DNA of 64,000 bases. Source: Chroogloeocystis siderophila 5.2 s.c.1 (GTDB taxonomy: Bacteria > Cyanobacteriota > Cyanobacteriia > Cyanobacteriales > Chroococcidiopsidaceae). The DNA lies in contig NZ_MRCC01000013.1 of assembly GCF_001904655.1 (NCBI RefSeq), positions 62,001-126,000 of the forward strand. The letters are read 5' to 3'. Positions 14,763-27,334 of this stretch are shown piece after piece. Position numbers and translations under genes: made by a program. Under the pieces are notes generated by a model. The model saw nothing but the letters and a program-made list of their open reading frames with translations. It was not told the origin of the DNA and searched no databases. Position 1 is the first letter of the stretch, and every line of letters begins with the position of its first letter.

Positions 14763-15596
14763 ATGACAACACTTGGTAGCCGCGCCCCCAGAAGCAGAAA
14801 TCAGCAAAAGACGATGTCCTTTGTAGCAAAATACATCGTGCCACCACTGATTGCGATCGCTGTTTTTTTAATTGTTTGGCAGCTACTTTTTTCAAGCCCA
14901 GATGCAAATTTACCAGGTCCAATTACGGTACTTCAAGAAACATGGGACCCTTTGATTATCAACCCGTTTTTTGATTATGGTGGAACAAATAAAGGATTAG
15001 GTTTGCAAATCCTCGCCAGTTTGGGGCGCGTTGCGATCGGCTTTTCCTTGGCGGCGATTGTCGGAATTGCGCTAGGGATTCTCATCGGAATTAGTCCGTT
15101 TATTTATCGCGCGCTCGATCCTTTGTTTCAAGTGTTGCGGACTGTACCACCTTTAGCATGGCTACCGCTGTCACTCGCAGCATTTCAACAAGCTAACCCT
15201 TCGGCAATTTTCGTCATCTTTATCACCGCAATTTGGCCGATCATCATTAACACGACTGTGGGCGTACAACAAATTCCCCAAGATTATCGCAACGTTGCGA
15301 AAGTACTGCGCCTGTCAGGACCAAAGTTTTTCTGGAAAATATTACTTCCGTCTGCGGTTCCTTATATCTTTACAGGTTTGAGAATCGGGATTGGTTTATC
15401 TTGGCTGGCGATCGTCGCCGCCGAGATGCTCACAGGTGGTGTAGGAATCGGCTTCTTTATCTGGGATGCTTACAACAGTTCGCGCTTGAGTGAGATTATC
15501 CTCGCGCTAATTTATGTCGGTATCGTTGGTCTCATCCTTGATCGCATTGTGGCTTTTGTCGCCTCCAAAGTCGTCCCAGAAGAGCAAAAGGCTTAA
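14763..15596 (+). CDS. nrtB: Nitrate/nitrite ABC transporter permease
   Basis: Integral membrane subunit of the NrtABCD transporter, 277 aa with about six membrane helices (first at about residues 20-42). The permease-ATPase coupling loop is seen as VAKVLRLSGPKFFWKILLPSAVPYIFTGLRIGIG, the EAA-type motif of the family. It follows nrtA by 56 bases. Confidence 0.94.
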   Translation: MTTLGSRAPRSRNQQKTMSFVAKYIVPPLIAIAVFLIVWQLLFSSPDANLPGPITVLQETWDPLIINPFFDYGGTNKGLGLQILASLGRVAIGFSLAAIVGIALGILIGISPFIYRALDPLFQVLRTVPPLAWLPLSLAAFQQANPSAIFVIFITAIWPIIINTTVGVQQIPQDYRNVAKVLRLSGPKFFWKILLPSAVPYIFTGLRIGIGLSWLAIVAAEMLTGGVGIGFFIWDAYNSSRLSEIILALIYVGIVGLILDRIVAFVASKVVPEEQKA

Positions 15597-15695
15597 CAAA
15601 GGAGCGAGGGATAGTTGTTATTACAAAGAAATTCGTTTTAGTTCATCCTTTCCCTGACCCTGAACTCTGACCCCTGACCTCTCATTGATTAAGTT
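15597..15695. repeat. Low-complexity spacer inside the nrt operon
   Basis: The spacer between nrtB and nrtC contains GGAGCGAGGGATAG and the iterated text CCCTGACCCTGAACTCTGACCCCTGA split over 15653-15678. It is typical of short repetitive intergenic DNA of cyanobacteria rather than a regulatory site. Similar GGAGCGAGG text is found near 750 and 60215. Confidence 0.4.
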
Positions 15696-17699
15696 ATGAA
15701 AGTATTTGTAGAAGTCGATCACGTCGATCAGGAATTTGTGTTACCGAGTGGTGGCACTTATGTCGCGCTACGCAATATTGAACTGAAAATTCAACAAGGC
15801 GAATTCGTCTCGTTAATTGGACACTCTGGGTGTGGTAAATCTACGCTACTGAATATTATTGCGGGGCTAAATCGCCCGGCGAGAGGTGGGGTATTACTCG
15901 AAGGGCGACAAGTTACCAAGCCTGGACCTGATCGCATGGTCGTGTTTCAAAACTACTCGTTACTACCTTGGTTAACCGTACGCGAAAACATTGCTTTAGC
16001 CGTCGATGAAGTAATGAGCAATGTACCCAAAGGCGAACGCCGAGGAATCGTTGAACAACACATTGATTTAGTTGGATTGCGTCATGCAGCGAATAAACGC
16101 CCAGGGGAAATTTCAGGGGGGATGAAACAGCGAGTGGCGATCGCTCGCGCTTTATCAATTCGTCCAAAATTACTCTTGCTAGATGAACCGTTTGGCGCAC
16201 TCGACGCTTTGACACGCAGTGGTTTGCAAGATCAGTTGATGAAGATCTGCGAGCAAAACCACATGACGTGTGTGATGGTGACACACGATGTGGATGAAGC
16301 ATTGCTGTTATCCGATCGCATCGTCATGCTGACGAATGGACCCGAATCGCATATCGGGCAAATTTTGGATGTTCCCTTTCCACGTCCGCGCCATCGCTTG
16401 GAAGTTGTGAATCACCCGAATTACTACAGCTTGCGCAACGAAATTGTTTATTTCCTGAATCAGCAAAAACGCGCGAAACAGCGTAAAGCACAGCAAGCGG
16501 TGGCGATCGCCCGCAATGGTTTAGAAAAAGTCAATCTTGAAATCGGCTTTATTCCTCTAACCGATTGTGCGCCGTTGGTCGTGGCGAAGGAAAAAGGCTT
16601 TTTTGAGAAATACGGCTTAGATGAAGTGATCTTGTCGCGCGAACCAAGTTGGAAAGCGATTTCCGAAGGTGTGGCAACACGTCGTCTGGATGCCGCGCAA
16701 ATGACCGCAGGAATGCCTTTAGCGATGACGCTGGGAATGAATGGTCAAGCCCCACAACCGATCGTGACAGGGTTAGTTTTGGCACGTAATGGTAATTCGA
16801 TTACGCTCAGCAAGCGATTTTATGATCAAGGAGTCCGGACACTCGCGGATTTTAAAGCAGCGATCGCACGCACACCGGATAAAGTTCATACTTTAGGCAT
16901 GGTGCATCCCGCATCGATGCATAATTTGATGCTGCGCTACTGGCTTTCTTCAGCGGATATTGACCCTGATTTGGATGTAAGTCTCACCGTGATTCCGCCA
17001 CCGCAAATGGTTGCGAACCTCAAAGCTGGAAATATTGACGGCTACTGCGTGGGCGAACCTTGGAATTCCCGCGCGGTTAAGGAAAACTTAGGTTTTGTCA
17101 TTGCTACAGATCTGGACATCTGGAACGGACACGTCGAGAAAGTTTTAGGTGTCCGTGAAGACTGGGCAAATCAACACCCTGAAACGCACCTTGCTTTAAT
17201 TAAAGCCTTGCTCGAAGCGTGCGAGTACTGCGACGATCGCCGCAATCGCGAAGAAATTGTCGCGCTGTTAGCCCAACCGCAGTACATCGGCGTTGCACCA
17301 GAATACATTCGCCCTGGATTCGTTGACGAATACGATCGCGGTAACGATACAGAACCTGAAATGCTGTTGCGATACAACCAATTTTACGTTGATCGCACGA
17401 ACTGCCCTTATCGCGTTGAGGGATTGTGGATGATGACGCAATTGGCTCGTTGGGGAATTACACCTTTTCCGAAAAACTGGATCGAAATTTTGGATCGGGT
17501 GCAGCGTGTCGATTTATTCGGCGCAGCAGCAAGAGATCTCGACTTGTTCGACACAGAACGCGATCGCAGTTCGATTCATTTCTTTGATGGCACGGTGTTC
17601 AATCCTGATGACCCAATTCGCTATCTTAATAGCCTCAAATTCAAGCGCAATGTGCGGATTGAAGAAGTTGTCGTTGATGCAACGCCAGCAGCTGTATAA
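15696..17699 (+). CDS. nrtC: Nitrate/nitrite ABC transporter ATPase fused to NrtA-like domain
   Basis: This 667-aa protein has two parts. Residues 1-260 are an ABC ATPase: Walker A GHSGCGKST, signature ISGGMKQRVAIARAL, Walker B LLLLDEPFGALDAL. Residues from about 280 to the end resemble NrtA (IGFIPLTDCAPLVVAKEKGFFEKYGL, IPPPQMVANLKAGNIDGYCVGEPW) but have no signal peptide, so this part lies in the cytoplasm. In NrtC the C-terminal domain is known to mediate ammonium inhibition of transport. The architecture is standard for NrtC. Confidence 0.96.
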   Translation: MKVFVEVDHVDQEFVLPSGGTYVALRNIELKIQQGEFVSLIGHSGCGKSTLLNIIAGLNRPARGGVLLEGRQVTKPGPDRMVVFQNYSLLPWLTVRENIALAVDEVMSNVPKGERRGIVEQHIDLVGLRHAANKRPGEISGGMKQRVAIARALSIRPKLLLLDEPFGALDALTRSGLQDQLMKICEQNHMTCVMVTHDVDEALLLSDRIVMLTNGPESHIGQILDVPFPRPRHRLEVVNHPNYYSLRNEIVYFLNQQKRAKQRKAQQAVAIARNGLEKVNLEIGFIPLTDCAPLVVAKEKGFFEKYGLDEVILSREPSWKAISEGVATRRLDAAQMTAGMPLAMTLGMNGQAPQPIVTGLVLARNGNSITLSKRFYDQGVRTLADFKAAIARTPDKVHTLGMVHPASMHNLMLRYWLSSADIDPDLDVSLTVIPPPQMVANLKAGNIDGYCVGEPWNSRAVKENLGFVIATDLDIWNGHVEKVLGVREDWANQHPETHLALIKALLEACEYCDDRRNREEIVALLAQPQYIGVAPEYIRPGFVDEYDRGNDTEPEMLLRYNQFYVDRTNCPYRVEGLWMMTQLARWGITPFPKNWIEILDRVQRVDLFGAAARDLDLFDTERDRSSIHFFDGTVFNPDDPIRYLNSLKFKRNVRIEEVVVDATPAAV

Positions 17700-20861: not shown

Positions 20862-20886
20862 TTCTTGCTTTTCCCTATTTTTTAAC

Positions 20887-20901
20887 ACCATGTGGTAATA
20901 T
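20887..20901. promoter_or_regulatory. Operator copy A upstream of the ArsR-type regulator
   Basis: ACCATGTGGTAATAT is one of four copies of an imperfect palindrome, consensus ACCATNTGRTAATAT, that occur only in the promoter regions of the 20.9-27.3 kb sulfur island. It is 42 bases before the regulator's ATG, overlapping the expected core promoter, as expected for autorepression. Confidence 0.6.
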
Positions 20902-20928
20902 AATAATAAAAACAAAAGCGCTAAATTT

Positions 20929-21351
20929 TTGTCATCCTTACCTATGCCTACGAAGTCGCCTAAAAAGTCAGTTACTGCGCAAGAAAAAACCGAAGAGTGT
21001 GGTATTTCTAAACTCTCCCCTGAAGCGCTAGGCTTGATGGCAGAATTCTTCAAAGTTTTGTCAGAGGTGAGTCGGTTGCAAATTGTGTGTTCCTTAAAAA
21101 CTGGTCCTAAGAATGTCACTGAAATCATTGCAGAAACAGAATTAGGACAGGCAAATGTCTCAAAGCATTTAAAAATGCTCACCCAAGCAGGCATTGTGGC
21201 ACGGGAACAGCGTGGTGTATGCGTTTATTACCAAATTGCTAATCCACTTCTGTTTGAATTGTGCGATTTAGTTTGCAATACTTTGATCGCGCAAGTAGAA
21301 CAGCAAAGTTTACAGCTACAGCAACTGTCATCATTACGCAAGAACGGTTAG
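20929..21351 (+). CDS. ArsR-family repressor, probable sulfide/persulfide sensor
   Basis: This 140-aa winged-helix protein has the recognition helix in ELGQANVSKHLKMLTQAG and the wing in REQRGVCVYYQIA. It lacks the CxC metal motif of SmtB/ArsR sensors. Cys54 (RLQIVCSL) aligns with the first reactive Cys of SqrR/BigR-type persulfide sensors; the second candidate is Cys112 or Cys116 (ELCDLVC), about one helical turn from the usual place. It is convergent with sqr. Adjacent sulfide-oxidation genes and the shared operator suggest it represses them until persulfide oxidises the thiols. The sensing chemistry is inferred. The start could be the ATG at 20944 instead. Confidence 0.8.
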   Translation: MSSLPMPTKSPKKSVTAQEKTEECGISKLSPEALGLMAEFFKVLSEVSRLQIVCSLKTGPKNVTEIIAETELGQANVSKHLKMLTQAGIVAREQRGVCVYYQIANPLLFELCDLVCNTLIAQVEQQSLQLQQLSSLRKNG

Positions 21352-21361
21352 TTTTTTTTTG

Positions 21362-21390
21362 AGAAGGTAGATTCTAATCTACCTTCTTTT
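21362..21390 (+). terminator. Intrinsic terminator after the ArsR-type gene
   Basis: AGAAGGTAGATT (21362-21373) and AATCTACCTTCT (21376-21387) form a perfect 12-bp stem separated by only CT. TTT follows on the plus strand. It lies between the convergent regulator and sulfide:quinone reductase genes and probably serves both transcripts. Confidence 0.8.
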
Positions 21391-21395
21391 GTGAT

Positions 21396-22715
21396 TTACC
21401 GTCGGACAAGCTTGTTAATAGGCTTGAGAATATCGGCTTCAAAGCCTTTACCCTTGAGCATTCGATTCCAGTACAACCAAGGTAGTACGCGTGCTTTAGC
21501 TAAATACATTGAATAGCGTTCCTGTGTGGGGTCGAGGGGAAAAGATGGCGCTAATTTACCGCCATAGGCAAACTCTGCCATAATCGCAGAGTTATAGCCA
21601 GTGATTAAAGGACAACAAGTATAGCCGTCGTACTTGGCTGACAATGGTTTAGAGCGAATCAACGCTAGCAAGTTTTGTACGGCAACAGGAGCTTGTTTGC
21701 GTGCTGCTGCTGCTGTTTTGGACGTAGGTAAAGATGACGCATCACCTAAGGCAAAGACGTTAGCATAGCGCGTATGTTGCAATGTCTCTTTATCTACCTC
21801 TACCCAACCACCTGCTCCCGCAAGTGGGCTGTGTTTAATAAAATCTGGCGCACTCATTGGGGGAGCTACATGAATCATGTCATAGTGAAGACTAACTTCT
21901 TCTGTACCGCTATCTGTAGTTACTGCAAAGATAGCTTCTTGAGTATCTGCCTTAATTTCTTTCAGGTTGTGCTTAAATTTGGTTACAATCTGCCGTCGCG
22001 CTACTACTTTGTCTAAAGAGGCAGAATATTCTGGAACAGAAAACATTGATGCACCAGCCGTGCAAAACATAACGGTGGTATCCACTTTGTTGCTTTTGAA
22101 AATATCATCTGCTAGGTACATGACCTTCTGAGGGGCACCACCACATTTGATTGGAGTGGCAGGATGGGTGAAAATGGCATTGCCGCCCTTAAAGTTTTTG
22201 ATGATTTCCCAAGTGTAGGGAGCATAGTCTTTGGAGTAGTTACTCGTGACTCCATTTTTTCCGAGTGCTTCTTTCAACCCTTTGATCAAATGCCAATCGA
22301 TTTGAATTCCTGGACACACAACTAGGTAATCGTATTCAATTTCATTTCCCTCTTGTGTAATGACAATGTTGCGATCAGGTTCTAGTTTTGCTACGCGGTT
22401 TTGAATCCAGGTTGCGCCTTTGGGAATGACTGCTTTTTCATCTCGAATAAACTTGGAAATGGGTGCAATACCTCCACCAACAAGCGTCCATCCAGGTTGG
22501 TAGTAGTGTTTGTCAGAAGGTTCGATAATAGCAACGTCGAGCGCGCGATCGCGCTTGAGCAGTTGAGCCGCAACAGTAATGCCAGCAGCGCCGCCTCCGA
22601 CAATGACAATTTGATGATGTTTGACAGGTAGCGCAGTTGTATCGTTCGACGAGAGGTTTTGGGTTGTCAGGTGAGATTGTTGAATATTTTGAGTTTTTTG
22701 TGCAGTGGGTGACAC
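21396..22715 (-). CDS. sqr: Sulfide:quinone oxidoreductase, type II
   Basis: Membrane-associated flavoprotein of 439 aa that oxidises sulfide to sulfane sulfur and passes electrons to quinone. The FAD Rossmann motif is IVIVGGGAAGITVAAQLL (about residues 36-53), and the second dinucleotide region ends VFALGDASSLPTSKTAAA. Redox cysteines are likely in TPIKCGGAPQK and YTCCPLI. YYQPGWTLVGGG is characteristic of the SQR type related to mitochondrial SQOR. Start is GTG 22715 preceded by GAGG. The N-terminal 30 residues are a polar extension. It is divergent from the persulfide dioxygenase gene. Confidence 0.9.
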   Translation of the reverse strand: MSPTAQKTQNIQQSHLTTQNLSSNDTTALPVKHHQIVIVGGGAAGITVAAQLLKRDRALDVAIIEPSDKHYYQPGWTLVGGGIAPISKFIRDEKAVIPKGATWIQNRVAKLEPDRNIVITQEGNEIEYDYLVVCPGIQIDWHLIKGLKEALGKNGVTSNYSKDYAPYTWEIIKNFKGGNAIFTHPATPIKCGGAPQKVMYLADDIFKSNKVDTTVMFCTAGASMFSVPEYSASLDKVVARRQIVTKFKHNLKEIKADTQEAIFAVTTDSGTEEVSLHYDMIHVAPPMSAPDFIKHSPLAGAGGWVEVDKETLQHTRYANVFALGDASSLPTSKTAAAARKQAPVAVQNLLALIRSKPLSAKYDGYTCCPLITGYNSAIMAEFAYGGKLAPSFPLDPTQERYSMYLAKARVLPWLYWNRMLKGKGFEADILKPINKLVRR

Positions 22716-22805
22716 GGTAATTCCTCGAATTCTATGAAGTGCAGAGTGAGAAGCTATAAGGTTAATGAAATAATTTACTAACTACCCTACTATATAACTT
22801 ATACT

Positions 22806-22820
22806 ACCATCTGATAATAT
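22806..22820. promoter_or_regulatory. Operator copy B upstream of sqr
   Basis: ACCATCTGATAATAT matches the shared consensus ACCATNTGRTAATAT fully. It lies about 90 bases upstream of the sqr GTG start on the minus strand. Confidence 0.6.
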
Positions 22821-22889
22821 GATGCTGCTTCTCAACAAATACTTACAACTAATATTATTATTTAACAAAATTTGTTAGCATCTTATATT

Positions 22890-22904
22890 ACCATATGATA
22901 ATCT
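22890..22904. promoter_or_regulatory. Operator copy C upstream of the rightward sulfur operon
   Basis: ACCATATGATAATCT, preceded by TT, gives the near-perfect dyad TTACCATATGATAAT (22888-22902). It differs from the consensus at one base. An inverted half-site ATGGTAAT follows at 22916-22923. Confidence 0.6.
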
Positions 22905-23083
22905 AATGAAATAACATGGTAATACATTAAAGCTTTGAGGCTCATGAAGTGATAGTTGCTGGCTATTTAACTTTTTTTTCAATCATTGTGGTGGCTACCA
23001 TTCTGTTTGTGGCAAGCGACACGTGAAGCCTCTACCCCAGCTATTGCCTGAATCATGTTTACGTTTAATTAGGATCAAAAATT

Positions 23084-23785
23084 ATGCTGTTTCGCCAACT
23101 ATTCGACCAAGACACATGGACGTACACTTACTTAATTGCTGATCCTCAGACGCGGGAGGCAGCACTTGTCGATCCAGTCATTGAGAAAGTCGAACGAGAT
23201 TTTCAGCTGCTTAAGGAATTGGGGCTAAAGTTGAAATTCTGTATAGAAACACACGTGCATGCTGACCATATTACAGGCACCGGAAAACTTCGCGAACTGA
23301 CAAACTGTGAAGGAATTGTTCCAGAGAATGCTCAAGTTTCCTGTGCTAGTCGTCTCATCAAGCATGGAGATGTATTGCAAGTAGGCAACATTAAAATTCA
23401 AGCGATCGCAACTCTAGGGCACACAGATAGTCACATGGCATATTTGGTCAATGGTGACAGAGTGCTCACAGGCGATGCACTGTTTATTCGGGGATGCGGA
23501 CGTACCGATTTTCAAAGCGGAGATCCAGGCACTTTATACGACTTTGTCACGCAAAACTTATTTACTTTACCTGACGAAACGCTTGTTTATCCAGGACATG
23601 ACTACCGCGGACAAACAGTTTCTACCATTGGTGAAGAAAAGCAATGGAACCCGCGATTCGCAGGACGTACGCGAGATCAGTTCATTGAATTGATGAATAA
23701 TTTAAACCTGCCCAATCCCAAAAAGATTATGGAAGCAGTTCCGGCAAACGAACAATGTGGTCAAGTTGCCATTGCCAGTAGTTAA
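23084..23785 (+). CDS. Persulfide dioxygenase (ETHE1-like metallo-beta-lactamase fold)
   Basis: This 233-aa protein oxidises glutathione persulfide to sulfite with a mononuclear iron. The metal site is seen as THVHADHITG (HxHxDH), HTDSHMAY, TGDALFIRGCGRTDF and YPGHDY. These make the ETHE1-type 2-His-1-Asp iron centre and the typical R-x-D-F segment. The neighbouring SQR would supply persulfide, and rhodanese and an exporter lie downstream, so it probably heads the operon 23084-25280. AGGA precedes the ATG at 23084. Confidence 0.88.
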   Translation: MLFRQLFDQDTWTYTYLIADPQTREAALVDPVIEKVERDFQLLKELGLKLKFCIETHVHADHITGTGKLRELTNCEGIVPENAQVSCASRLIKHGDVLQVGNIKIQAIATLGHTDSHMAYLVNGDRVLTGDALFIRGCGRTDFQSGDPGTLYDFVTQNLFTLPDETLVYPGHDYRGQTVSTIGEEKQWNPRFAGRTRDQFIELMNNLNLPNPKKIMEAVPANEQCGQVAIASS

Positions 23786-23876
23786 GTTTGAAACCCAATC
23801 TAAATAACAAGATTAAGTCTCCTTCAGTTGCATTTGTTTTTACCCACTTACTGAAATCAATACTAAGGAAAATTGA

Positions 23877-24443
23877 ATGACAAGTACGCCTGAAAAGCAA
23901 TTAACCAATCGCCGCGATCGCTTAAAAACTATTGACGTACATACTCTCAAACAGTTACTTGATCGCCAAGCTGTCAATTTAGTAGATGTTCGCGAACCTG
24001 CTGAAAACGCCAGAGAAAAAATTCCAGGTTCAGTGTTGATGCCCTTATCAAACTTCAACCCAGCTGATGTACCATTTGCACCTGAAAAGCCTACTGTACT
24101 CTACTGTCGTACAGGAAATCGCTCAGCACAAGCGGCACAAAAATTGTTTGCCGCTGGCGTCAACGAAGTAGAACATTTGGAAGGTGGATTAACAGCGTGG
24201 ATAGAAGCAGGCTATCCGACTCAAGTGAATAAGAAAGCACCCATTAGTCTGATGCGGCAGGTACAAATTGTTGCAGGTTCGCTTGTCCTCATTGGCACTT
24301 TACTTGGAGCATTTGTCTCTTTGTGGTTCTTACTTTTGAGCGGGTTTGTGGGTGCTGGATTAATGTTTGCCGGAATTACAGATACCTGTGCATTAGGAAT
24401 GCTACTTGCCAAGATGCCTTGGAATCAAAGAACTTACCGTTAA
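23877..24443 (+). CDS. Membrane-anchored rhodanese (rhodanese + DUF2892)
   Basis: The 188-aa protein has a rhodanese domain (about residues 20-118) with active-site loop CRTGNRSA, whose Cys carries sulfane sulfur. Two hydrophobic helices follow (about 130-152 and 155-180: IVAGSLVLIGTLLGAFVSLWFLL and FVGAGLMFAGITDTCALG), the DUF2892-type membrane hairpin. It probably transfers sulfur between persulfide and thiosulfate or sulfite at the membrane. It sits 91 bases after the dioxygenase. Confidence 0.88.
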   Translation: MTSTPEKQLTNRRDRLKTIDVHTLKQLLDRQAVNLVDVREPAENAREKIPGSVLMPLSNFNPADVPFAPEKPTVLYCRTGNRSAQAAQKLFAAGVNEVEHLEGGLTAWIEAGYPTQVNKKAPISLMRQVQIVAGSLVLIGTLLGAFVSLWFLLLSGFVGAGLMFAGITDTCALGMLLAKMPWNQRTYR

Positions 24444-24500
24444 CTATTATGCATCCAAAACATTGCTCACTTTAGAGAGCTTACAAGGAACAATATATCA

Positions 24501-25280
24501 ATGTTAATCGCCATTGTTGGGCACTTACTGGCAATTTGTATTGGCATCAGTCTCGGTTTAATTGGTGGTGGCGGCTCAATTCTTGCAGCACCTATTCTTA
24601 TTTATGTTATGTCAGTTCCACCACAATCGGCGTTTGCTATGACGCTGGTGATTGTTGGTTTCGCGAGTGTAATTGGTGCTATTCCACATTGGAGGCAAGG
24701 AAATGTTAATTTAAACACAGTTATTTTGTTTTCACCCGCAGCGATGCTGGGAGCCTATTTAGGGGCGCGGCTTGTATCACTTCCATTTATTACCCCTACC
24801 ATTCAACTTATTACCTTTGGAGTGGTGATGCTAATTGCATCAATCACAATGATTCGTAAAGGAAGCAAGCCGGCCGAAAGCACTGTCAAGAAAGCTGATC
24901 GCCACACCCATCACTTGTTCTTACCCAGATGGCTAGCGATCGCCATAGAAGGTTTAGCAGTTGGTGTATTAACAGGTTTTATCGGGATTGGCGGTGGATT
25001 TTTAGTCATCCCTGCGTTAGTTCTACTGGGAAATGTTCCCATGAAAGAAGCTGTAGGGACGTCATTAATTATTTTGGCGCTTAAATCCGTGACTGGATTT
25101 GCTGGATATGTTGGCAACGTTCCCATTGACTGGAATCTGTTGATTTCATTTACAATTGCTTCAAGTATTGGAATTCTCGCGGGAAGCTATCTTAATCAGT
25201 TTGTTAGTGCTAAACAGCTTGAGAAAGGTTTCGGTTACTTTGTCCTAGCAGTTGCTATGTTTGTTTTGATTAGGCGTTAA
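24501..25280 (+). CDS. TauE/SafE-family sulfite/organosulfonate exporter
   Basis: Polytopic membrane protein of 259 aa with about eight helices. The duplicated glycine-rich motif of the family is visible at LGLIGGGGSILAAPILIY (residues 19-36) and TGFIGIGGGFLVIPALVLLG (about 159-178). In this context it likely removes sulfite or thiosulfate produced by the dioxygenase and rhodanese. It is the last gene of the rightward sulfur operon. Confidence 0.88.
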   Translation: MLIAIVGHLLAICIGISLGLIGGGGSILAAPILIYVMSVPPQSAFAMTLVIVGFASVIGAIPHWRQGNVNLNTVILFSPAAMLGAYLGARLVSLPFITPTIQLITFGVVMLIASITMIRKGSKPAESTVKKADRHTHHLFLPRWLAIAIEGLAVGVLTGFIGIGGGFLVIPALVLLGNVPMKEAVGTSLIILALKSVTGFAGYVGNVPIDWNLLISFTIASSIGILAGSYLNQFVSAKQLEKGFGYFVLAVAMFVLIRR

Positions 25281-25297
25281 TCTAGTACTAATAGTTA

Positions 25298-25341
25298 ATG
25301 GTTGATTGTGAATAGATCGCTCAATCTTAACAATCAACCAT
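25298..25341. terminator. Inverted repeat between convergent sulfur operons
   Basis: ATGGTTGATTGT (25298-25309) and ACAATCAACCAT (25330-25341) are a perfect 12-bp inverted repeat with a 20-base loop. It lies between the convergent TauE/SafE and CstB-like genes. It probably acts as a bidirectional terminator, though T-runs are weak. Confidence 0.6.
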
Positions 25342-25363
25342 CAGTATTTCTTAAGTTAATGCG

Positions 25364-26776
25364 TTACGCTGTTACGGCTTTTGCTTCTGGTTTCTCAATT
25401 GGTAAATCTGCACCTTTCCAAGCAATCCAGGAGCCAGGAACGTTAATTACCTGCTCAAAGCCATGCTTTTTCAACAGACTTGCGGCAATTGAGGCTCGAT
25501 AGCCACTACCGCAGTAAGTTACAATTTTTTGACTGCGGTCAAGTTGATCTAAATGTTCTTCTAGATGAGCGACAAAAATGTGTTTAGCTCCTGGAACAAA
25601 TCCGTGTTGATATTCGTCATCGCCACGGACATCGAGTACAGTTACTGATGGATCTTGTTTATGCTGATTTAATTCATGTACCGTCCATTCATGCACTCGT
25701 TCCAGGGGTAGTCCGGCATTTTGCCAACTGGTCATCCCATCGTGCAAATAGCCTGCTAAATTGTCGTAGCCGATGCGGAAAAGTTGCTCTGTAGCCAGTT
25801 TGACATCTCGTTCACTTTCTACTACAACTAACAACGATTTTTCAGGATCGATCATCCAGCCTACCCAATTGGGAAACTCTGGACGTAGGGCAATATTAAT
25901 GGCACCAGGAATATGTCCTCCGCCAAAGGCTAGTATCGAACGGGTATCAATGACCACTGTATTTTCATCTGCCATTTTCTGTTGAAATTCGCTAGGTGTC
26001 AGTGGTTGCAGTACTGGAGGACAGCCTATGATTGGTGCACCCTTAGCGTTAACTTTTTTGAGCCGCGCATAATGACGTGGGGGTTCTGGCATTTCGCTCA
26101 TAATCCATTCCACAAACTCGGTTTCTGAGCGTTCCTGAAATGCTGGATTGAAAATTCGCTCGTTACCAATGGTACTTTGTCTGCGATCGCCAATAGATTT
26201 TCCACAGGAGGAACCGGCACCGTGACAAGGATAAATCTCGACGCGATCGCCTAAGGGTAACATCTTATCGAACAGCGTATAGTAAAGCTGTGCTGCCAGT
26301 TTTTTTTCAGTTCCACCCCCTAACAAATCAGGACGACCAACGTCTAAGTTAAATAATGTATCCCCTGTAAATAGCCCAAACGGCTCTTTACCTTGTTTTG
26401 AGTCGTAAATTAGAAGTGAGATATGTTCAGGAGTATGTCCTGGCGTGTGCAAAGCGCGCAGCGTAACGCTGCCAATATGAATTTCGTCACCCTCTTGCAG
26501 CTGATGAATGTCAAATTGATAGTCATCACTTTTACCGCCGTAGATAGGAATATCTATACGGGCTTTAAGTTCGTGGGAACCGGAGACAAAGTCAGCATGA
26601 ATATGCGTTTCTACACTACCAATCAATCGCACACCTAGTTCTCTGGCTCGTTGTAGATAGACATCGACATCTCGACGGGGATCTATTACAACTGCCACTC
26701 CTGCTTTGTCGTCGCCCACAAGATATGATAATTGTGCCAAGCCTTCGACATTAATTTGTTCTAAAATGAGTGCCAT
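25364..26776 (-). CDS. CstB-like persulfide dioxygenase fused to two rhodanese domains
   Basis: This 470-aa protein has three domains. The metallo-beta-lactamase dioxygenase (about 1-250) has ETHIHADFVSG, HTPGHTPEH, GDTLFNLDVGRPDL and YPCHGAGSSCG. A degenerate rhodanese (about 275-360) has VVVESERD where the active-site loop should be and no catalytic Cys. An intact C-terminal rhodanese (about 375-460) has loop YCGSGYRAS. This is the architecture of staphylococcal CstB, which turns persulfides into thiosulfate. It reads leftward in an operon with the DUF442 gene. Confidence 0.88.
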   Translation of the reverse strand: MALILEQINVEGLAQLSYLVGDDKAGVAVVIDPRRDVDVYLQRARELGVRLIGSVETHIHADFVSGSHELKARIDIPIYGGKSDDYQFDIHQLQEGDEIHIGSVTLRALHTPGHTPEHISLLIYDSKQGKEPFGLFTGDTLFNLDVGRPDLLGGGTEKKLAAQLYYTLFDKMLPLGDRVEIYPCHGAGSSCGKSIGDRRQSTIGNERIFNPAFQERSETEFVEWIMSEMPEPPRHYARLKKVNAKGAPIIGCPPVLQPLTPSEFQQKMADENTVVIDTRSILAFGGGHIPGAINIALRPEFPNWVGWMIDPEKSLLVVVESERDVKLATEQLFRIGYDNLAGYLHDGMTSWQNAGLPLERVHEWTVHELNQHKQDPSVTVLDVRGDDEYQHGFVPGAKHIFVAHLEEHLDQLDRSQKIVTYCGSGYRASIAASLLKKHGFEQVINVPGSWIAWKGADLPIEKPEAKAVTA

Positions 26777-26821
26777 TATTGTTACCTCTCAAGTGTGCTG
26801 CAATTTAGATAAAGCAAGCTA

Positions 26822-27283
26822 TTATGAGGCTCTATCGCCATTAGAATGAGTGGAAACGTATTGTTTAAAAAACTCCTTCATTTGGGGGCTGGAATCACAA
26901 TCGAATCCCATCTGCTTTCCTTTTTCCATTGCTGCTTCTGCACTTAAACCTTCGCGAGTGGCAACATACATTAGAGCCATTGCACCAGAACGCAGTCCGC
27001 TTTTGCAGTGGGTTAAAAGTGGCTTTGGCAACTGGTCAATTTGTTCCATAATGCGATCTGCTTGTTCCTGGTTTAGGGCATCTGGACGTACAGGAAGATT
27101 TACATATTGCAGTCCTGCGGCTTCTGCGTGTTGTTGTTCATCACTCAAAGCACCTTCTTCTTGCAGCGATCTCAAGTTCAGTACTGACTTATATCCTTCC
27201 TCAGCCGCCTGTCGCAGATCCTGCGGTGTTGGTTGTCCCATGGCAACAGAAATGCTGTCGTTAATTTGTTTAACGTTATTCAT
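26822..27283 (-). CDS. Blh/DUF442 phosphatase-like protein
   Basis: This 153-aa protein resembles the N-terminal dual-specificity-phosphatase-like domain of beta-lactamase-hydrolase-like (Blh) proteins. It shows VAMGQPTPQDLRQAAEEGYKSVLNLR and the PTP-type loop HCKSGLRSG (Cys-x5-Arg). Such domains are commonly linked with persulfide dioxygenases and rhodaneses in sulfide-responsive operons. Its biochemical role is unsettled; sulfur transfer through the loop Cys is plausible. It is the first gene of the leftward pair and has operator copy D upstream. Confidence 0.82.
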   Translation of the reverse strand: MNNVKQINDSISVAMGQPTPQDLRQAAEEGYKSVLNLRSLQEEGALSDEQQHAEAAGLQYVNLPVRPDALNQEQADRIMEQIDQLPKPLLTHCKSGLRSGAMALMYVATREGLSAEAAMEKGKQMGFDCDSSPQMKEFFKQYVSTHSNGDRAS

Positions 27284-27319
27284 TGAGGATTTTCCACTAA
27301 ACTTTTATATTCTCATCTT

Positions 27320-27334
27320 ACCAAGTAGTAATAT
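27320..27334. promoter_or_regulatory. Operator copy D upstream of the DUF442-CstB operon
   Basis: ACCAAGTAGTAATAT, inside TTACCAAGTAGTAA (27318-27331), is the fourth copy of the island operator. It differs from the consensus at two positions. It is 37 bases upstream of the ATG at 27283. Confidence 0.55.

Follow-up and report, generated by a model that had tools for sequence, protein, structure and literature searches.

Sulfide inhibits oxygen evolution. In Staphylococcus aureus, the cst operon encodes a sulfide:quinone oxidoreductase (SQR), CstB and TauE, and its repressor CstR belongs to the CsoR family. A different arrangement is found in the bigR operon of Xylella and Agrobacterium, which encodes BigR, Blh and a TauE-related exporter; BigR recognises the -10 region of this operon, and its DNA binding is lost with glutathione persulfide (GSSH) or H2S (PMC5823870). 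For cyanobacteria, SQR and the persulfide dioxygenase (PDO) of Synechococcus PCC 7002 produced sulfite and thiosulfate in E. coli (PMC7042703), and the pathway itself is already known. ArsR-type genes beside cyanobacterial sqr genes have been noted as possible regulators in 27 cases (PMC5061849), ArsR-type regulation has also been suggested for a type II sqr (PMC8002359), and cyanobacteria have been reported to carry homologues of SqrR/BigR (PMC9774250). Sulfide sensing in oxygenic phototrophs beyond SuoR seems little known, since the main text of a 2026 review of cyanobacterial redox regulators contains no words beginning sulfide, persulfid or sulfane (PMC13421787). Here I describe a sulfide/persulfide island of Chroogloeocystis siderophila 5.2 s.c.1, at about 20.88–27.33 kb of a stretch of 64,000 nucleotides (contig NZ_MRCC01000013.1, positions 62,001–126,000; hereafter the window). 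Four palindromes in this island are probably the operators of its own ArsR-type protein, which would act as an autoregulated repressor that frees the island on sulfide or persulfide. No description of this operator or regulon was found in the open-licence PMC literature.

The island resembles the bigR operon (PMC5823870) in combining an ArsR-family repressor with an ETHE1-type dioxygenase, a DUF442 sulfur transferase and a TauE-type exporter. It differs in that the two halves of Blh are separate genes in two predicted transcription units, and in the addition of SQR and a CstB-like protein. The Blh model NF040641 describes a sulfur transferase-dioxygenase fusion; its first part matches the DUF442 protein and its last part the dioxygenase, and the island can therefore be viewed as a split bigR-operon enzyme together with SQR and the CstB-like protein. 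SQR, the CstB-like protein (which matches the structure 3r2u over nearly its whole length) and TauE recall the cst operon, but the regulator is of the ArsR family, unlike the CsoR-family CstR. As in SqrR of Rhodobacter capsulatus and YgaV of E. coli, this ArsR-family regulator accompanies sulfide genes and possesses a helix 2 cysteine at the same position. Similarity is also seen to a locus on plasmid pSYSM of Synechocystis PCC 6803, which I take to be suoRSCT, encoding SuoR and presumably a type I SQR: there an ArsR-type gene lies beside an SQR-like gene, with the same recognition-helix core and a related palindrome upstream. However, the neighbours on pSYSM are chrA and DUF302 genes, and SuoR is distant and lacks a cysteine at the position of Cys49 of the island regulator. 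The pairing of a SuoR-type gene with a type I SQR is not found in the island, because its SQR is of type II, as judged from the match to mitochondrial SQOR. The pSYSM palindrome, ATACAACTATGTAGTTATAT (NC_005229.1, 11400–11419; L120), occupies the intergenic region where the SQR-like gene and its neighbour diverge, 3 mismatches from the operator consensus given below, and may be the SuoR operator. The SQR and PDO pathway of PCC 7002, leading from sulfide to polysulfide and on to sulfite and thiosulfate, is a further parallel with cyanobacterial enzymes; the words ArsR and operon are absent from the main text of that paper (PMC7042703).

The operator in the window, the genome and the class

A first-pass annotation of the window had reported four copies of the 15-mer ACCATNTGRTAATAT. 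This sequence occurs exactly at 20887 and 22806, but with 1 mismatch at 22890 and 2 at 27320, and these are therefore not four equal copies. As a motif the 15-mer had to be rejected, since at 3 mismatches it gives 15 matches in comparison to 11.5 expected, and 21 of 100 shuffles reach as high a count. The sites are better described by the 20-bp palindrome ATATTACCANNTGGTAATAT, which at up to 3 mismatches is found in the window at the four island sites only (O1–O4, Table 1; mean of 0.02 and maximum of 1 in 200 dinucleotide shuffles), in agreement with the earlier remark that no copy lies elsewhere. One site precedes the ArsR-type gene, two lie between the divergent SQR and dioxygenase genes, and one precedes the DUF442/CstB-like pair. 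The sites had been assigned to three promoter regions plus the ArsR gene; there are three intergenic regions in all, and the ArsR promoter is among them. The observation on the sites is in this sense partly confirmed.

The palindrome is nearly exclusive to the island in the full genome as well (5.0 Mb, 43 contigs), with 10 forward places when up to 3 mismatches are allowed, four of them being the island sites (2 places for the reversed-pattern control). The six off-island places lie inside open reading frames (ORFs) of at least 100 codons (contigs C4, C8, C3, C25 and C2) or, on C1, span the 3' end of such an ORF, so that many copies at unrelated promoters, which would have spoken against the idea, are not seen in this strict search. 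The looser form ATATTACYANNTRRTAATAT finds only three island sites in the genome at up to 1 mismatch, and 29 forward places at up to 3 mismatches, in comparison to 17 for the control. Eight off-island loci of this looser form were inspected; in five the place is not covered by any ORF of 100 codons or more, but no ORF of that size begins within 300 bp of any of the eight. In a promoter scan, O3 overlaps promoter-like -10 hexamers of the predicted dioxygenase operon and O2 overlaps a -35-like hexamer of SQR. When 11 intergenic regions separating SQR and dioxygenase genes are aligned, both O2 and O3 are seen to be conserved. An additional half-site, TGGTAATAC, is present at 22917–22925, just past O3; it is shared with a genome of the same genus (G067) and absent from the other nine rows of this alignment.

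For a comparative test, a matrix was built from the four window sites alone, and used to score the 300 bp preceding dioxygenase genes. The sample was 195 genomes of the order, 119 of which have a dioxygenase match, giving 125 distinct upstream regions. Matches were dropped if they started after residue 12, had less than 55% identity, less than 120 bp of upstream sequence or an identical last 150 bp; one upstream region was excluded for sharing more than 95% identity with the window, three dioxygenase places were left out (G184, G125:C31 and G022:C49), and a partial match in G085 (L066) was removed by the start filter. A score of at least 12 is reached by 50 of the 125 dioxygenase upstream regions (mean of 0.15 and maximum of 1 in 20 shuffle rounds). 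At a threshold of 10 this rises to 60, where the shuffles give a mean of 0.75, which provides a testable handle on which genomes carry a sulfide regulon, and with what content. Among 361 upstream regions of unrelated ORFs in the same loci, 3 score at least 12 and 6 at least 10; one of these three (L046) may be real, as an SQR-like gene accompanied by a SuoR-like gene lies nearby.

The operator is also associated with the regulator. Where an ArsR-type gene was located no more than 2.3 kb away, 26 of 39 dioxygenase upstream regions have a site scoring at least 12, compared to 24 of the 86 with none seen; for 100 regions the sequence taken reached no further than 2 kb upstream of the dioxygenase gene, and an ArsR gene on the other side therefore counts as absent. 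Counted by genome (116 of the 119 dioxygenase-positive genomes), an operator scoring at least 10 is present in 50/73 whose ArsR match reaches E ≤ 1e-36, compared to 10/43 that have no match so close.

A pattern search further illustrates this distribution. With up to 1 mismatch, ATATTACYANNTRGTAATAT is found in 37 of the 195 genomes sampled from the order, at 45 forward places in comparison to 4 for the control. In an overlapping sample of 388 genomes from the class, 55 have it, with 3 control places. Of 49 loci with a match, 32 have the site at most 300 bp ahead of an island-type gene. For the remaining 17, the site is inside an ORF of at least 100 codons in 13 and not in 4 (L101, L117, L232, L234); the filter overlooked that in one of the 13 (L115) the site actually lies in the interval separating SQR and dioxygenase genes. 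The paired layout recurs outside the order: in seven genomes (G217, G339, G362 and G368 of family f56, G331 and G407 of f48, and G203 of f42) the SQR and dioxygenase genes also diverge, and the stretch separating them holds two operators (up to 3 mismatches) at a distance of 84–86 bp. The site is also present 20–30 bp before DUF442 genes in six loci (L091, L094, L096, L097, L099, L116). In six loci (L216–L221), dioxygenase domains are found in long open frames of 724–806 codons, and none of these six has an operator scoring at least 6 upstream.

The consensus of the 44 distinct operators scoring at least 12 is ATATTACTATATAGTAATAT. The SqrR motif, ATTC-N8-GAAT (PMC9774250), has the same spacing as the ATTA-N8-TAAT of this consensus but differs by one base in each half-site; none of the 44 operators contains ATTC-N8-GAAT, and three contain exact ATTA-N8-TAAT. 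The central proposal of the first-pass annotation, that every promoter region of the island, the one ahead of its ArsR-type gene among them, shares a single operator, is supported at the level of sequence, both by the sites themselves and by the comparative test.

The ArsR-type regulator and the proposed switch

The regulator is a member of the ArsR/SmtB family (PF01022, 51 bits for a cutoff of 22; NF033788, 78 bits for a cutoff of 55). Searches of the PDB did not separate SqrR, SmtB, CzrA and PagR as its nearest relative, and it scores 37.5 bits with the BigR equivalog model NF040642, below the cutoff of 155. It possesses three cysteines, Cys49 and, near the C-terminus, Cys107 and Cys111. Cys49 aligns with a cysteine of the structure 6o8k (RLQIVCSL and RLMIMCYL, respectively), and the protein thus has the helix 2 cysteine of the SqrR/BigR type; I take 6o8k to be SqrR, and the aligned residue to be its Cys41. 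All three cysteines are invariant in an alignment of 12 rows (A2).

Homologues were compared in 84 rows plus the 6o8k stretch, identical and short rows having been dropped; the resulting tree has few columns and 17 open forks, and was used for broad grouping only. A cysteine at the Cys49 position is found in 64 of 65 main-group rows and in all 8 rows beside chlA, ho or hemN genes, or 72 of the 73 rows outside the paralogue and SuoR-type groups. It is absent from the 9 rows of three paralogue clades, which include the genome's own C2, C4 and C19 proteins, and from both SuoR-type rows. Five ArsR matches were counted in this genome, with the paralogues among those listed.

In the proposed mechanism, a dimer of the ArsR-type protein would occupy the ATATTACYANNTRGTAATAT-like sites O1–O4 when sulfide is absent, and block transcription of its own gene, of the SQR gene, of a putative operon comprising a microprotein, the dioxygenase, rhodanese and TauE, and of a putative DUF442/CstB-like operon. 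Upon entry of sulfide, persulfides would form through SQR or by chemistry, and Cys49 together with one or both of Cys107 and Cys111 would be modified or bridged by sulfur. The modified repressor would then leave the DNA, allowing synthesis of the enzymes that are predicted to convert sulfide to persulfide, sulfite and thiosulfate. By analogy with described regulators, persulfide may well be the releasing signal: in SoxR of Hyphomicrobium, cysteines are bridged by sulfur (PMC10451225).

Several observations weigh against this proposal. No site scoring at least 10 is present in 65 of the 125 dioxygenase upstream regions, and a score of 12 is not reached in 13 of the 39 that have a neighbouring ArsR gene. 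The association by genome (odds ratio of 7.2, p = 2.8e-6) was computed with statistics that ignore phylogeny. Across bins of ArsR similarity, from no match listed to the closest, the operator is present in 0/6, 6/20, 4/17, 22/27 and 28/46 genomes; this trend is not monotonic, as 22/27 is reached at E values of 1e-36 to 1e-42 but only 28/46 with closer homologues. Cys49 marks the group rather than sulfur loci, since homologues that lack an island gene within 4.5 kb carry it as well, and the HMMER alignments to 6o8k end before Cys107 of SqrR, so that Cys107 and Cys111 of the island regulator are at most candidate counterparts of that residue. The same genome encodes three or more ArsR paralogues whose recognition helices are nearly identical, and these could bind too. 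At the sites themselves, O1 has one poor half-site, and promoter-like hexamers show no excess in the region (14, in comparison to 13.5 in shuffles).

These paralogues, of the C2, C4 and C19 types, may share the operators, in which case the island would be wired to more than one signal. The C2- and C19-type genes have conserved near-palindromes of their own, ATATTACTTATACGCAATAT and AATAACCAATTAGTTATT (L090, L062, L063), whose arms are related to those of the island sites; but these are 4–5 mismatches from the consensus, suggesting separate specificities, and I consider such sharing unlikely. The identity of the signal can also be questioned. Nagy and colleagues reportedly found in 2014 that SuoR of Synechocystis answers to both arsenite and sulfide, and the invariant Cys49, Cys107 and Cys111 could form a three-thiolate site for arsenite or another thiophilic metal(loid), acting instead of persulfide or besides it. 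The palindrome upstream of the pSYSM SQR gene would fit this, and the adjacent ArsR-type protein shares the helix core QANVSKHL with the island regulator. However, SuoR is the distant, Cys49-lacking protein described above, the controlled genes handle sulfur, and none of the seven island proteins scanned is an arsenic-resistance enzyme or pump by family; a metal(loid) effector is on balance rather unlikely.

Alternatively, the sites may belong to another regulator, above all the low-oxygen MarR-type activator ChlR, and the island would then answer to low oxygen instead of sulfide. The ChlR motif, TTMCC-N3/4-GGWAA (PMC13421787), resembles the operator core TTACCANNTGGTAA, and close homologues of the island regulator, some with related palindromes, stand beside ChlR-type targets (chlA, ho and hemN, see below). 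Nonetheless, of 35 forward genome matches to the exact N4 form (15 for the control), none is at the island sites, each of which has at least one half that breaks the ChlR form, and O2 both halves. The exact N3/4 form is absent from the 50 strongest dioxygenase operators and from all 125 upstream regions; the commonest operator core is TTACTATATAGTAA and not CC/GG. The operators are often beside ArsR-type genes, and commoner where those exist. ChlR is on these grounds a decidedly unlikely owner of the island sites. Chance recurrence of an A+T-rich palindrome would agree with the chance-level behaviour of the 15-mer at 3 mismatches, but is refuted by the shuffle, control-gene and reversed-pattern tests, and can be considered negligible. 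The evidence as a whole favours an ArsR-type repressor acting on its own island in response to sulfide or persulfide.

RexT was also considered as a candidate, and rejected by its motif ATTCG-N15-CGAAT (PMC8960804), which is absent from O1–O4 by eye. RexT has vicinal cysteines, Cys40-Cys41; the window protein has no adjacent cysteines, while several of its relatives in A2 have Cys-Cys at positions 49–50 (RexT itself is not in this alignment).

Tetrapyrrole genes and a microprotein

Close homologues of the regulator adjoin genes of tetrapyrrole metabolism in three families: chlA, ho and hemN in f2 (L058, L060, L077), chlA in f8 (L082, L086) and hemN in f20 (L045, L047, L051); in a further locus (L056), a homologue is near chlA- and ho-like matches. 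The products encoded in L060 match HemN (680 bits), AcsF (507 bits) and heme oxygenase (265 bits). Between chlA and ho of f2, the palindrome ATATAACCATTCGGTGATAT is found in L060 with a score of 16, and palindromes scoring 8 are found in L058 and L077. A palindrome scoring 11 precedes chlA in f8, and none scoring above 0 precedes the hemN genes of f20. The chlA and ho copies are taken as probable low-oxygen isoforms, because of the gene cluster described for Synechocystis (PMC4500134). A search of the window genome with the L060 heme oxygenase found no match at E ≤ 1e-30.

An element that the first-pass annotation had missed is a 25-residue ORF, MIVAGYLTFFSIIVVATILFVASDT, between O3 and the dioxygenase gene, with one hydrophobic segment. 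A near-consensus query identified it in 13 of the 388 genomes of the class (E ≤ 0.01), with a length of 24–25 residues among relatives, and in all 13 it lies just before a dioxygenase gene with a site (up to 3 mismatches) upstream; a more divergent copy in L233, below this query threshold, was seen by direct scan. Differences among the 13 sequences, several of which are close relatives, number 401, 186 and 880 at codon positions 1, 2 and 3, and such a third-position bias is a signature of coding sequence as read from the substitutions. The microprotein has no NCBIfam or Pfam match at E ≤ 1, which is a weak test for 25 residues, and a search of the open-licence PMC literature brought up nothing on it. 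I would guess it to be a small partner of a membrane protein of the sulfide pathway.

A broader and tentative reading, which I regard as possible but not probable, is that a persulfide switch built on this ArsR-type protein and a dedicated 20-bp operator extends throughout the cyanobacterial class. Close homologues of the protein in f2, f8 and f20 would have moved onto chlA, ho or hemN, such that sulfide or persulfide, besides ChlR-mediated oxygen loss, would set heme, bilin and chlorophyll synthesis under sulfidic anoxia; and in part of the class it would also control the 24–25-residue membrane microprotein, working with the dioxygenase or the exporter. If true, the tetrapyrrole link would tie sulfide sensing to oxygen-free pigment synthesis, with a bearing on early cyanobacteria in sulfidic water.

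Layout of the island and its neighbourhood

The features of the island are listed in Table 1. The gene assignments of the first-pass annotation hold in family and PDB searches, and a flux from sulfide to thiosulfate is predicted from them.

Table 1. Genes, predicted operators and other features of the sulfide/persulfide island (window coordinates).
Feature	Coordinates	Strand	Description
Operator O1 (predicted)	20882..20901	.	TTAACACCATGTGGTAATAT; 3 mismatches; 42 bp before ArsR-type gene ATG; proposed autoregulatory site
ArsR/SmtB-family regulator gene	20944..21351	+	135 aa; HTH_5 / HTH_metalloreg; converges on SQR gene
Terminator-like hairpin	21361..21388	+	Between convergent ArsR and SQR genes; hairpin scan
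Type II sulfide:quinone oxidoreductase (SQR)	21396..22715	-	phmmer to mitochondrial SQOR 6oi5, 418 bits
Operator O2 (predicted), SQR-proximal	22801..22820	.	ATACTACCATCTGATAATAT; 2 mismatches
Operator O3 (predicted), dioxygenase-proximal	22885..22904	.	ATATTACCATATGATAATCT; 2 mismatches; 84 bp from O2
25-aa ORF, unannotated	22949..23026	+	GTG start inferred; divergent from SQR
ETHE1-type persulfide dioxygenase	23084..23785	+	phmmer to 4ysb, 289 bits; human ETHE1 4chl, 224 bits
Rhodanese with YgaP-like membrane domain	23877..24443	+	PF00581 and PF11127
TauE/SafE-family exporter (predicted)	24501..25280	+	PF01925, 171 bits
CstB-like protein	25364..26776	-	Metallo-beta-lactamase domain and two rhodanese domains; 3tp9, 297 bits; 3r2u, 269 bits
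DUF442/BLH-phosphatase-type sulfur transferase	26822..27283	-	PF04273; N-terminal part of Blh model NF040641
Operator O4 (predicted)	27315..27334	.	ATCTTACCAAGTAGTAATAT; 2 mismatches; before DUF442/CstB-like pair

The homology of SQR to mitochondrial SQOR spans residues 32–423 of 439, as expected of a type II enzyme, and the match of the dioxygenase to human ETHE1 covers residues 2–227, indicating full-length ETHE1-type homology. The CstB-like protein, which forms a pair with the DUF442 protein on the - strand, has near full-length matches to both 3tp9 and 3r2u, in line with the domain composition of CstB by sequence. No PDB sequence match was found for the TauE/SafE-family protein; its Pfam membership suggests that it may export sulfite or thiosulfate. 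The terminator-like hairpin belongs to a class that is weak in this region, because nine are found in comparison to 5.8 in shuffles.

The first-pass annotation had placed the island directly beside a nitrate operon, but this neighbourhood is not a conserved feature and was rejected as a meaningful link: a narB-like query matches 1 of 49 ArsR-centred loci, that of the closest same-genus genome (some of these loci are short and some are around paralogues, and narB is here the reading of an ORF and not the result of a family search).

Related arrangements were encountered in two other genomes. A remnant-looking partial copy of the island is present in G085, of the same genus (L066, about 15300–17060), comprising a rhodanese, a dioxygenase match to residues 107–231 only and a CstB-like match split over two frames. 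In G134, of the same family (L068 / L121), a DUF442/CstB-like/ArsR arrangement carries a perfect ATATTACCAACTGGTAATAT, and the ArsR gene is at the same place on the G134 contig and on plasmid pCHRO.01 of Chroococcidiopsis thermalis PCC 7203, which is typed as conjugative.

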